Assembly (NCBI GenBank): GCA_944326705.1
Contig: CALVEY010000013.1
Location: 1 to 62,428, forward strand
DNA from: an uncultured Mucispirillum sp.
Lineage (GTDB): Bacteria > Chrysiogenota > Deferribacteres > Deferribacterales > Mucispirillaceae
Direction: 5' to 3'
Length of the DNA: 62,428 bases
Notes under the pieces: model-generated
What the model was told of the DNA's origin: nothing
Database searches by the model: none
What the model saw: only the letters and a program-made list of their open reading frames with translations
Program-made: the position numbers and the translations under genes
Shown here: positions 2,775 to 61,721 of the stretch, in pieces
Position numbering within the stretch: the stretch's first letter is position 1
Layout of the letters: every line of letters starts with the position of its first letter

Positions 2775-2815
2775 ATCAACATAGCAGTTTAATAAATCTT
2801 TATGGGGGATATGCA

Positions 2816-4210
2816 ATGAAAGAAATCTCAGGCGATTCTAAAATTGTCATGGGCTATATTTATTCTGCATTATTCTGGGGTGTTATAGGTCTTGTATTAG
2901 GTCTTCTCATCTCTGCTCAAATGTGGAGTGTTAGCTTTAATTTTGGAGAGTATTTTTCATTCGGCCGTCTTAGAACGGTTCACACAAATGTTCTTGCTTA
3001 CGGGCTAGGTATCACTGCTGAAATGGGCGCATTCTATTATATTATTGGACGCCTTACAAAACGCAGCCTTATTTTCCCTAAGCTTGCAGTTTTCCAACTT
3101 GTATTCTTTAACATTGTTGTTCTTGTTGGAACACTTTCTCTTTTTGCAGGTTATAACCAAACACTTGAATATGCTGAATTTGAATGGTTTGTTGACCTTG
3201 GTGTTGTTGTAGCATGGGTTTTATTTGCTATTAACGTATTAGGTACAATTCTTACTAGAAAAGAAAAACATATGTATGTTTCTTTATGGTATATTCTTGC
3301 AACAATCGTAACTGTTGCAGTATTATATATTGTAAATAACTTACACGTTGTTGCTTCTCTTGGTAAATCTTACCATTTATTTGCAGGTTTAAACAGCGCC
3401 AATGTTGAATGGTGGTATGGTCACAATGCTGTTGGTTTCTTATTTACTACACCAATTTTAGCAATATTCTACTATTTCTTACCAAAATCAACTGGTATGC
3501 CAATATACAGCCACAGATTATCAATGCTTTCTTTCTGGTCATTGATTTTCATGTATTTATGGACAGGTGCTCACCACCTTGTTTACACTCCACTTCCAGA
3601 CTGGCTCCAAACATTAGGTATTGTATTTACAATCCTTCTGATTGCACCATCTTGGGGTTCTGTAGTAAACGGTTATTTAACACTTGCTCCAGACTGGTCT
3701 AAACTTAGAACTGCATATTTAGCTAAATTCTTTATTGCAGGTATTACATTCTATGGTTTACAAACATTACAAGGTCCTACACAAGGTCTTCGTGCAGTAA
3801 GCTCACTTGTTCACTACACTGACTGGGTTCCAGGACATGTTCACATGGGAACTATGGGCTGGGTTGTTTTAACTGTAACTGCTGCAATTTACTATATTAC
3901 AACAAGAGTTTATAAAACTGAAATATACAGTGAAAGCTTAGCTAATACTCACTTCTGGCTTGTTCTTTTAGGTCAAATCGGTTTCTCTATCACTATGTGG
4001 ATAACTGGTATCCGTCAAGGCCTTATGTGGAAATCTACTAATGTTGATGGAACATTAACATATTCATTTATTGAAACATTAGTTGGTAACTATCCATACT
4101 GGATGGCTAGGTCTGTATTCGGTGTTATATTTATTGTTGGTATGCTTGTTTTCCTTTTCAACTTCATTATGACTATTGTAAAAGGCAAACAAAACTTATC
4201 TAATCAATAG
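2816..4210 (+). CDS. ccoN: Cytochrome cbb3 oxidase subunit I (CcoN)
   Basis: CcoN is the catalytic haem-copper subunit that reduces oxygen to water in the inner membrane and pumps protons. The multi-helix protein shows the expected ligands: a His in HTNVLAYG, the CuB-region His in WWYGHNAVGF, the His pair in GAHHLVYT, and the haem ligands in VPGHVHMGTMGW. I start it at ATG 2816 (464 residues) because a GGGGGAT ribosome site precedes it. The longer reading frame from 2756 would overlap the -10 element. ccoO follows after 11 bases. Codon use is richer in C-ending codons than in neighbouring genes, which suggests high expression. Confidence 0.96.
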   Translation: MKEISGDSKIVMGYIYSALFWGVIGLVLGLLISAQMWSVSFNFGEYFSFGRLRTVHTNVLAYGLGITAEMGAFYYIIGRLTKRSLIFPKLAVFQLVFFNIVVLVGTLSLFAGYNQTLEYAEFEWFVDLGVVVAWVLFAINVLGTILTRKEKHMYVSLWYILATIVTVAVLYIVNNLHVVASLGKSYHLFAGLNSANVEWWYGHNAVGFLFTTPILAIFYYFLPKSTGMPIYSHRLSMLSFWSLIFMYLWTGAHHLVYTPLPDWLQTLGIVFTILLIAPSWGSVVNGYLTLAPDWSKLRTAYLAKFFIAGITFYGLQTLQGPTQGLRAVSSLVHYTDWVPGHVHMGTMGWVVLTVTAAIYYITTRVYKTEIYSESLANTHFWLVLLGQIGFSITMWITGIRQGLMWKSTNVDGTLTYSFIETLVGNYPYWMARSVFGVIFIVGMLVFLFNFIMTIVKGKQNLSNQ

Positions 4211-31587: not shown

Positions 31588-32853
31588 ATGAAAACATTAC
31601 TTAAAAACTGCAAAATAGTAAATCATGATAAAATAACTGAAGGTAATATTTTAATAAATGATAATATTATTGAAGATATTACAAATGAAGATGTTCAGGC
31701 AGATAATGTATATGACTGCTCAGGTAAATATGTTCTTCCTGGGCTTATAGATATGCACTCTCACATGAGAGAGCCGGGATTTGAATATAAAGAAGATATT
31801 ACAAGTGCAGGTCAGGCTGCTGTAGCCGGCGGTATTACTACTGCATGCTGTATGGCAAATACTAAACCTGTTATAGATAATGCTCCTGTTGCTGCATTTA
31901 TTATTAATAAATCAAAAAAAGACGGACTTTTTGATGCTCTGCCTTATGGCGCTGTTACAAAAGGGCTAAAAGGCGAAGAGCTTACAGAAATGGGCGATTT
32001 AATAGAAAATGGTGTATGCGGCTTTTCTGATGATGGATACACTATTATGAATGCAGAAGTTATGCGCAGAGCATTAGAGTATGTTAGATATTTTGACTCT
32101 TTTATTTCTGTTCATGCAATAGATACTAACCTTCAAGGCAATGGATATATGAATGAAGGCAGAATTTCAGCAATTAATGGCTTAAATGGTATCCCTTCTG
32201 AATCAGAATCAGTAATAATTGCAAGAGATATTATGCTTGCCCGCCTTACAAAATCAAGAGTGCATATAAGCCATGTAAGCTCAAAAGAAGCTGTTGATAT
32301 AATACGCTGGGGCAAAAATGAAGGCATTAATGTTACAGCAGAAGCAACACCGCACCACTTTACATTAACAGATGAAAACTGCTTAACTTATGATACAAAC
32401 TATAAAATGAGTCCCCCATTAAGAGAAGAAGAAGATATTGAAGCAATATTACAAGGGTTTAAAGACGGCACAATAGACTGTATTTCTACAGACCATGCAC
32501 CACATCAGGATGATGAAAAATTTGTAGAATTTGGACTTGCTCCAGTTGGTATTATTGGATATCAAACTGCTGTTCCATTAACTATAAAAAGGATAGATGA
32601 AGGAAAACTTTCATGGACAGATTTTGTAAAGCTTATGTCTTATAATCCATCTAAAATACTTAAAAAAGAAAACTTAGGTATTATTGCAAAAGGAAAACAG
32701 GCTGATATTGTAGTTATTGATGCAGATGTAGAATATACTTATACAAGAGAAATAAATAAATCTAAATCATATAATACCCCATTTTTAAATAAACAGTTAA
32801 AAGGTAGAGCAATTTATACATTTAAAAATGGCAGATTAGTTTATCAGGCATAA
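31588..32853 (+). CDS. pyrC: Dihydroorotase
   Basis: PyrC closes carbamoyl aspartate to dihydroorotate. The 421-residue class I-type amidohydrolase has DMHSHMREPGFEYKEDI (metal His pair), ISVHA-type (FISVHAID), VHISHVSSKEAV and the catalytic Asp in STDHAPHQDDEK. It follows pyrB with 17 bases between and ends at a strong terminator. The window therefore holds pyrB, pyrC, pyrD and pyrK, but not pyrE, pyrF or carAB. Confidence 0.96.
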   Translation: MKTLLKNCKIVNHDKITEGNILINDNIIEDITNEDVQADNVYDCSGKYVLPGLIDMHSHMREPGFEYKEDITSAGQAAVAGGITTACCMANTKPVIDNAPVAAFIINKSKKDGLFDALPYGAVTKGLKGEELTEMGDLIENGVCGFSDDGYTIMNAEVMRRALEYVRYFDSFISVHAIDTNLQGNGYMNEGRISAINGLNGIPSESESVIIARDIMLARLTKSRVHISHVSSKEAVDIIRWGKNEGINVTAEATPHHFTLTDENCLTYDTNYKMSPPLREEEDIEAILQGFKDGTIDCISTDHAPHQDDEKFVEFGLAPVGIIGYQTAVPLTIKRIDEGKLSWTDFVKLMSYNPSKILKKENLGIIAKGKQADIVVIDADVEYTYTREINKSKSYNTPFLNKQLKGRAIYTFKNGRLVYQA

Positions 32854-32874: not shown

Positions 32875-32904
32875 AAGGCTATTGGTTTTCCAATAGCCTT
32901 TTTT
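32875..32904 (+). terminator. Rho-independent terminator after pyrC
   Basis: AAGGCTATTGG (32875-32885) and CCAATAGCCTT (32890-32900) form an 11-base stem with a TTTT loop, then four more T. Read on the minus strand it is followed by AAATTTTTT, so it may also stop transcription coming from the riboswitch. Confidence 0.9.
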
Positions 32905-32957
32905 GTTACTCATTATAAGTGACTTTATAAAAGTCTAAGATATATAATATCTTTTAA

Positions 32958-33082
32958 AATATTCTCTTTCATCCGGACTATACCGTCGGCTTTGGATTTG
33001 CACCAAATCTGCCAAAAAAGGCTCGTGGGCTTGTTTTTAAACTTACCACCGGTGGGGAATTTCACCCCGCCCTGAGATATTC
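32958..33082 (-). ncRNA. FMN riboswitch (RFN element) with no downstream gene
   Basis: Read on the minus strand the element has all conserved RFN blocks in order: AGGGCGGGGTGAAATTCCCC, ACCGGTGGTAA, CCCACGAGCC, GGCAGATTTGGTG, CCAAAGCCGACGGTATAGTC and CGGATGAAAGAGAATATT. The P1 stem forms between 33082-33074 and 32966-32958 with one bulge. Downstream on the same strand there are two small hairpins (32937-32953, 32921-32935) and then the pyrC terminator; no riboflavin gene follows. Upstream is the mcp terminator. It is therefore an orphan. Confidence 0.95.
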
Positions 33083-33083
33083 T

Positions 33084-33129
33084 AAAAATATTTAGTCTGC
33101 TTAATAATATATTTATTAAGCAGACTAAA
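33084..33129 (-). terminator. Rho-independent terminator after mcp
   Basis: A 17-base stem (33129-33113 with 33107-33091) around a 5-base loop begins 4 bases after the mcp stop on the minus strand and is followed by ATATTTTT. It ends where the FMN riboswitch begins. Confidence 0.82.
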
Positions 33130-33132
33130 AAT

Positions 33133-34767
33133 TTATTTTACTTTAAATCTTGTAAGCATCATTTTAAGGTTTTCTACCCTTTCTTGTAAATGCTCAATAG
33201 TTTGCGTTACTTCATTTACTGCGTTGCTTGATTCTTCAATACCTGTTGCAATACTTATTGATGTTTCATGCACAGTCTGCACTGTAGAATATTCGTTATC
33301 CATATCATCACGAATAGTGCTCATAACACTGCTTATACCGTCAATACCTGCAAATATTTTATTAAATACATCTTCAGTTCTTTCAATATTATTAACACCT
33401 TCTTTAACTTTTTCAGCTTCCATACCCATTGCAGAAGATGCAGTTAAAGCTTCCTGCTGTAATGTAGAAACAATAGTTGTAACTTCACTTGTTGCTTTTT
33501 GTGTTCTTTCTGCCAGCTTCCTTACTTCATCAGCAACTACTGCAAACCCTCTGCCTGCTTCCCCTGCACGCGCTGCTTCTATAGCTGCATTTAATGCAAG
33601 AAGATTTGTCTGGTCTGCAATATCATTAATCACTGTTACAATATTACCAATTTCGCTGGAAGAATTTGCAAGATTAGTAATTGTATCAGAAAGAGAATCT
33701 GCATCTGTGTGTATTTTTTCCATACTTAATTTTAAATCTGTAAGCTGTTTTTTACCATCATTTGCAGAAGTAACTGTAGTATCTACGATTTCCTGATTTG
33801 ATTTTAAAGAATCAACTGTTGCTTTTACTGTTGTATTAATAGAATCTAAACTAGATGCTGTATCACTTACTTGATGAGCCTGCTCTGAAAATGTAGAAGA
33901 TAACTCTTCCATAGTTGAAGCAAGCTGATTATTACTTGATGCAACATCTTCTGTAGCTTCTGTGACATTCAGAAGTATCTCTCTGATACTTGCAAGAGAT
34001 ACATTGATATTTTTAAATGTAGCACATATTTCAGATGTACCAGCTAATGCTGGAGCTTTTACAGTCATATCACCATCAGCAATACTAATAAATAATGAAT
34101 CTAATGTATTTAATGCTCTTTTTAAACTGCTTATAAAGATATATAAGAAAATTAAGAAGATTATTGCTATACTTGCTATACATAATAAAGATACAATAAT
34201 AAGTGTAACTGTTTTAGAAGCAGATTTTTTCGCAGCTTCTGTTGAAAAAACTTTAATTTCATCTTCAAAAGTATTTAAAGACTGTGTTATTTTTTCTTTT
34301 CCTGCTTCATACTCTCTACTGCTCATAAGCTGTGAAGCTTTCTGTAAATCACCTGCAGCAACAGCTTCAAATGATGCTTCTTCCAGCTTGATTAATGCAT
34401 CAGAATCACTTTTTGCTCTTTCTACATATACTAAAATTTCAGAAGGTACACCTAATTTAACTAGTGATTCTATTGATTTATCTCTAGTTTTAGTTTCATT
34501 TACTTCTTTCCAGTATTTATCATAATATTCTCTGTTACCAGTAGTAGCATAAAGCCTTGCCTGAGTAGTAAGATAATCTGACGCTTTTGAAACCATAAAC
34601 CCATATGAAACAATATCAAGGCTGTCAAATGTTAATTTTTCATTTTCTTTTGTGGCGTTATAAATCATTGTCATAAAAATGAGAAATGAAATAATCATTG
34701 CAGCCATACCAACAACAATAATCCATAAAAAATAATTAAACTTAAATTTTAAAATCCCCAGTCCCAT
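33133..34767 (-). CDS. Methyl-accepting chemotaxis protein
   Basis: The 544-residue chemoreceptor has a first membrane helix (about 10-35), a roughly 150-residue helical sensor region of the four-helix-bundle type, a second helix (about 190-213), a HAMP segment, and the cytoplasmic coiled coil. The highly conserved signalling tip is [20 protein letters not shown] followed by [20 protein letters not shown]. The ligand cannot be predicted. It is transcribed alone from its own sigma70-type promoter and ends in a strong hairpin. GGGG before the ATG acts as the ribosome site. Confidence 0.95.
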
Positions 34768-61646: not shown

Positions 61647-61721
61647 TGGCTGGGGCAGAAGGATTCGAACCTCCGGATGGCGGGACCAAAACCCGCTGCC
61701 TTACCACTTGGCGATGCCCCA
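61647..61721 (-). tRNA. tRNA-Gln (anticodon TTG)
   Basis: Read on the minus strand the 75-base tRNA begins TGGGGCA and ends TGCCCCA-G-CCA with an encoded CCA. The anticodon stem GCGGG/CCCGC encloses the loop TTTTGGT, giving anticodon TTG (reads CAA/CAG, Gln). The T-arm has GGTTCGAATCC. A promoter lies just upstream, and proB follows on the same strand. Confidence 0.97.

Follow-up and report, generated by a model that had tools for sequence, protein, structure and literature searches.

An FMN riboswitch without a gene at the former ribB locus of Mucispirillum: recent relic or retained noncoding RNA?

Introduction

What is a complete FMN riboswitch doing between two terminators, with no gene behind it? 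This question is raised by the genome of an uncultured Mucispirillum sp. (G000; assembly of 2.39 Mb), where such an element lies on the minus strand between mcp and pyrC. The window analysed here is the whole of contig CALVEY010000013.1 (GenBank assembly GCA_944326705.1), 62,428 nucleotides long; the congeners compared with it are called G001 to G009. An earlier note on this DNA had offered two answers, either a relic left by loss or movement of a rib gene, or a functioning FMN-sensing small RNA or antisense regulator of the pyrC end, and had taken the intact sequence to argue for a retained role.

Results

We searched the whole window with cmscan and obtained a match to the FMN riboswitch model RF00050 on the minus strand at 33082–32957 (119.5 bits, E 2.6e-27; Rfam gathering score 66.2). 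Model positions 1–138 of 138 were covered, so that the aptamer (32957–33082) is complete, and the score ruled out a chance match to the FMN model. The Infernal check that the earlier note had set thus bore out its reading of every RFN block and a closing P1 stem on this strand. The aptamer matched the Rfam consensus at 64 of 66 conserved columns; the two exceptions (column 36, C to U; column 59, G to A) stand opposite each other in one stem. It was the sole FMN riboswitch of the assembly. We concluded that, in sequence and structure, the RNA belongs to RF00050, and FMN binding is predicted.

Directly upstream of the aptamer, a hairpin of 17 pairs followed by TATTTTTAGA (33091–33129) forms the apparent terminator of mcp, a methyl-accepting chemotaxis protein ORF on the same strand (33133–34767) whose matches to NCBIfam chemotaxis models were all under their cut-offs. 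On the other side, a hairpin of 11 pairs (32875–32900) has T-rich tails on both strands, that of the minus strand being AAATTTTTTA, and forms a bidirectional terminator common to the convergent pyrC, a dihydroorotase ORF on the plus strand (31588–32853; TIGR00857, 430.4 bits, cut-off 279.05). Counted by strand, four terminator-like sites were observed, where shuffled sequences led us to expect 0.1. The flanking terminators described in the earlier note were therefore recovered on both sides. Between the two small hairpins that it had placed downstream of P1 and our predicted fold there was a discrepancy, as the fold showed three (minus strand, about 32937–32953, 32921–32935 and 32908–32920).

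The ORF list agreed with the previous claim that no rib gene or other ORF follows the aptamer and that pyrC is on the opposite strand: downstream on the minus strand it held no riboflavin gene and no other plausible ORF. The only ORF of at least 40 aa over the element was a 46-aa GTG frame inside the aptamer, which we rejected as a gene. A short frame noticed by eye at the terminator, beginning ATGAGTAAC, was also rejected as a gene; it enters the terminator and differs in G003. Promoter-like sites around the element were at chance level (three found, 2.0 expected), in keeping with the earlier remark that no promoter was obvious. With no same-strand riboflavin gene downstream in G000, the element falls outside the cis-acting ribB/rib riboswitches. 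The known counterpart is the FMN riboswitch of the ribB leader (RF00050; E. coli sroG/ribB); the accessible text of PMC9885008 gives the E. coli sroG element upstream of ribB as an FMN riboswitch. The aptamer of G000 is the same, whereas neither ribB nor any other gene stands behind it, little of the leader is left, and what comes next is the terminator of a convergent gene.

We compared the same locus across the genus, anchored by nifS-nifU-nfu and, at the opposite end, by pyrC. The locus was readable throughout in eight genomes; G002 (contig ending 183 bases past the pyrC match) and G004 (pyrC cut by a contig end) were left out. Among 39 genomes searched, ten contained an FMN riboswitch, G000 included. 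Seven of these had a ribB frame directly behind the aptamer: one Mucispirillum genome, G008, and six from outside the genus (G011, G019, G026, G032, G037 and G038). These frames were named by eye from the ORFs, with PF00926 matches in G008 and G011, and the G008 frame scored 225.5 bits with TIGR00506 (cut-off 177.45). Of the remaining three, G001 had a ribB pseudogene, and ribB was absent from G000 and G003. Because ribB stood behind the aptamer in seven of ten riboswitch genomes, we took the FMN riboswitch-ribB unit to be the older state.

Within the genus, the G008 locus contained an aptamer (109.1 bits) and an intact ribB of 207 aa between nifU/nfu and pyrC. G001 had an intact aptamer (113.3 bits), and its ribB was a pseudogene interrupted by stops and frame breaks. 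In G005 the aptamer's 5′ half was left (24.0 bits, under the threshold), with a pseudogene almost identical to that of G001. The aptamers of G006 and G007 had decayed, with homology still visible and no Rfam match up to E = 1, and ribB was gone from both, bar short leader and gene fragments in G006. G009 had neither aptamer nor ribB. In G000 and G003 the aptamer was intact and ribB cleanly deleted, with an identical junction. Thus, ribB was a pseudogene or absent in six other readable congeners, all but G008. Comparison with G008, G001, G005, G006 and G007 shows, at the level of sequence, that the element is what a deletion of ribB (DHBP synthase) left behind, namely the leader of that gene; the segment that touches the end of P1 (32887–32957, minus strand) would be the rest of that leader.

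The relic history put forward in the earlier note is therefore the right one as regards origin, since G008 has ribB behind the riboswitch at this locus and ribB is broken or gone in the other six congeners that could be read. The note had also counted a rib gene at this place in a close relative, together with degraded aptamers in other strains, against a retained role. Such a gene is present in G008; degraded aptamers exist in other species, but not in strains of the G000 species.

The G008 locus had peculiarities of its own. Its aptamer (L066:3919-4043) has unusual core changes at columns 109 (A to C) and 124 (U to C) and scores below the gene-less copies despite the intact ribB; the G008 riboswitch may be impaired. 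The mcp gene, present in the other seven readable genomes, is absent between nfu and the riboswitch in G008 (L066:3817-3920), where a hairpin resembling the mcp terminator persists.

Loss of riboflavin synthesis as such was ruled out, because G000 has a cluster that we read as ribD-ribE-ribBA-ribH-nusB (ribBA and ribH by PF00926 and PF00885; ribD, ribE and nusB by eye from translations). Two other DHBP-synthase genes were found in G000 (frames of 402 and 367 aa), and each of the eight readable genomes had two further genes with this domain (361–406 aa), read as ribBA; ribH was found in 10 of 10 congeners. Because two ribBA genes, and also ribH, were retained, the deleted ribB was a redundant copy. 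Movement of ribB to another place with its own riboswitch was rejected as well, since G000 has no further FMN riboswitch. A search with PF12822 (ECF transporters) gave matches at or near the cut-off and had no bearing on the question.

We then measured conservation of the gene-less element between G000 and G003. Four-fold sites differed at 24% in five neighbouring genes (146/610) and at 25.1% over 33 genes (720/2863). The 279-base spacer that contains the element had 19 substitutions over 277 aligned positions. Differences stood at normal density up to 32874 and from 33092 on, and in the alignment the mcp terminator hairpin was not the same in the two genomes. Within 32875–33091 there were ten differences, two of them single-base gaps, and the 71 bases of 32887–32957 did not differ at all. 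When mapped to Rfam positions, the changes struck 0 of 66 conserved columns versus 8 of 60 variable positions, a split with probability 0.002 if changes were randomly placed. Changes at conserved aptamer positions, by which a decaying relic would be recognised, were thus absent between G000 and G003.

We compared 48 spacers between these two genomes, setting aside non-adjacent pairs and any spacer under 60 bases. Seven were convergent, among which the element's spacer had the lowest divergence (0.069 differences per site versus 0.14–0.47 in the other six). Its best 70-base stretch had 0 differences, compared with 14–34 in the six others. Unchanged 70-base stretches occurred also in divergent and co-directional spacers, one with a tRNA, indicating that conservation here is at the level of functional DNA and is no record. 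A tRNA gene of the window (61650–61721, minus strand; RF00005, 59.9 bits) lies in a spacer with few differences to G003.

It could be supposed that something else keeps the segment conserved, for instance the pyrC 3′ end or a plus-strand DNA site, and that the aptamer merely rides along; the run without differences sits between the aptamer and the pyrC terminator, and palindromic hairpins could act on either strand. We consider this very improbable, because it leaves the 0 of 66 changes at conserved aptamer columns unexplained, the six other convergent spacers are unconserved, and the plus-strand promoter-like site is at chance level.

Relative to G000, the core columns changed (of 66) numbered 25 in G005, 24 in G007, 23 in G006, 5 in G001, 2 in G008 and 0 in G003. 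Four of the core changes of G001 versus the consensus formed two compensating pairs, columns 18/28 and 33/108, as read from the Rfam structure line. Four-fold differences were 0.251 for G000–G003, 0.270 for G000–G006 and 0.285 for the third pair among these three genomes, which form nearly a trichotomy (informative sites 100/105/102); their branching was not settled by a nifS+nifU tree, a pyrC tree or the 33 genes.

The unchanged core allows a second reading, in which ribB was functional until recently, one deletion spread between G000 and G003 by a very short recombination tract, and the element is now functionless; the core would then be unchanged because the aptamer served ribB until its recent loss. 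Dead alleles do move in this genus. The ribB pseudogenes of G001 and G005 had 8 differences over 551 columns, and their pyrC genes 6 over 1263 (four-fold sites 1/164), whereas the two genomes were otherwise apart (0.099 in mcp, 0.438 in the aptamer 3′ halves). A dead ribB allele evidently moved between them recently, with one end near the aptamer, and given such transfer the intact G001 aptamer cannot count as separate proof of retention. The near-identical stretch from ribB pseudogene to pyrC corresponds to L069 in G001 and L070 in G005.

Between G000 and G003, identical runs of 272 bases (34373–34644, inside mcp) and 247 bases (2781–3027, in another gene) fall in genes that otherwise diverge and are likely recombination tracts; identical runs of at least 71 bases numbered 76 in the window, mostly in genes. 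Because of the near-trichotomy with G006, the common deletion need not be ancestral, and ribB was lost or broken in six of the seven other congeners readable at the locus. Against recent orphaning, the identical stretch over the junction is only 71 bases long with differences on both sides, a small size for a recombination tract. Had the whole 217-base block been transferred instead, the differences that arose afterwards would have spared the aptamer core (0 of 66), and selection after ribB loss is needed again. We judge recent orphaning to be a serious possibility, though less likely than retention.

We also examined how the RNA may fold. The 239-base strand folded with a z of −4.83 relative to shuffles, and in the full-length fold the terminator always formed (probability about 1.0). 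The 5′ strand and loop of P4 (AGCCUUUUUU, 33014–33023, minus strand) is perfectly complementary to the 5′ arm of the minus-strand terminator (AAAAAAGGCU, 32895–32904, the computed partner of 33023–33014) and is a candidate antiterminator. In transcripts ending before the terminator 3′ arm, this pairing was more favourable than P4, by about 2 to 5 kcal/mol in G000 and by 1 to 3 kcal/mol in G003, and could thus allow FMN to favour termination. Similar complementarity exists in G008 with ribB in between (duplex −11.6 kcal/mol); the candidate antiterminator may therefore be a product of chance. In G003, P1 is weaker, with two non-standard pairs, and is not dominant in the full-length fold. A weak CsrC match at the G008 terminator (26.9 bits, gathering score 61) was taken as chance.

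Pairing with riboflavin gene start regions, computed in G000 for the 57-base segment only, placed ribD 29th, ribBA 49th, ribH 71st, ribE 88th and the second ribBA 111th of 180.

Discussion

Our best explanation is that the ribB leader has been kept by selection as an FMN-binding noncoding RNA predicted to end at the pyrC terminator, and we give it a probability of roughly one half. The constraint on the sequence suggests that the aptamer and leftover leader form a noncoding RNA of roughly 215 bases, which would be transcribed most likely by read-through of the mcp terminator or from an unrecognised promoter. Once bound, FMN would make the aptamer more stable and promote termination at the pyrC hairpin. 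In its absence, P4 could pair with the terminator 5′ arm and transcription would continue antisense to pyrC, a possibility that arises from computed pairings. Given such an FMN-gated choice between stopping and antisense run-on, the product could be an RNA that signals FMN status and acts in trans or as an antisense RNA.

Several results support retention. The G000 aptamer scores 119.5 bits, more than the ribB-linked copy of G008 (109.1 bits). The conserved block is bounded by the RNA's own limits, with differences back at normal density from 32874 downwards and 33092 upwards, and the predicted fold of the strand is more stable than shuffling would give. The contrast between 0 of 66 core changes in G003 and 23 of 66 in the about equally distant G006 argues for selection, as does the position of the element's spacer as the least divergent convergent one between G000 and G003. 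Other results speak against it. We found no promoter, and the element stands behind an apparent mcp terminator. The pairing with riboflavin gene starts was unremarkable, P1 is weakened in G003, and the antiterminator complementarity occurs in G008 also. The intact gene-less form is present in two genomes only, with the deletion common to both, and the genus-wide trend of loss and decay argues for a relic. Moreover, because interspecies recombination is active at the locus, identity between G000 and G003 need not mean selection.

The retained role suggested in the earlier note thus stands in part: neither the core nor the 71 bases after it have changed between G000 and G003, over a distance at which the G006 aptamer has decayed, but orphaning by recombination in recent times could produce the same picture. 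Either the element functions as an RNA without a gene, or it lost its gene very recently.

A narrower form of our best explanation would have the riboswitch act as an FMN-controlled pyrC antisense RNA or mcp 3′-UTR element, determining whether mcp read-through enters pyrC in antisense and so linking FMN status with pyrimidine synthesis. Convergent genes with a common terminator would suit such a role, as would the P4-terminator pairing, favoured by about 1 to 5 kcal/mol in shortened transcripts of both species, and riboswitch-controlled antisense RNA is known from Listeria AspocR, according to the accessible text of PMC8079631. However, the complementarity, being present in G008, is older than the loss of ribB, and the terminator forms at a probability of about 1.0 in the full-length fold; we regard this form as unlikely. 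A broader idea, that the leader was co-opted after the ribB deletion as a free-standing FMN-sensing RNA, with the convergent terminator as platform and either an FMN-gated pyrC antisense RNA or a trans target as output, seems to us quite possible, if a little short of an even bet.

Comparable RNAs have been described in Listeria. In the accessible text of PMC8079631, a vitamin B12 riboswitch controls a noncoding/antisense RNA (Rli55, AspocR), and SreA is a terminated SAM riboswitch of 229 nt that acts in trans as a free RNA. As with AspocR and Rli55, the predicted riboswitch output in G000 is a noncoding RNA and not an mRNA; unlike them, the G000 element would respond to FMN rather than B12, arose by gene loss, and is known from sequence alone. 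The unit of about 215 bases is close in size to SreA. In contrast to SreA, which keeps its cis operon, the element has lost its cis gene, and no trans target was found among riboflavin gene starts. The accessible portions of the papers that our literature search returned contained no FMN case of a riboswitch-controlled noncoding or antisense RNA, nor a gene-less FMN riboswitch kept after ribB loss, which does not prove that such a case is absent from print.

One practical consequence is that an FMN-regulated gene cannot be assumed wherever an FMN riboswitch is called automatically. The genus shows the riboswitch-gene unit at every stage of loss: both parts intact; an intact aptamer beside a pseudogene; half an aptamer; a decayed one; neither part; and an intact aptamer without a gene. 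The Mucispirillum series is thus a natural experiment on the fate of a riboswitch after the death of its gene, and it bears on whether riboswitches can become independent regulatory RNAs. If the broader idea of co-option is true, the element would be a riboswitch that turned into a regulatory RNA gene by losing its own gene.
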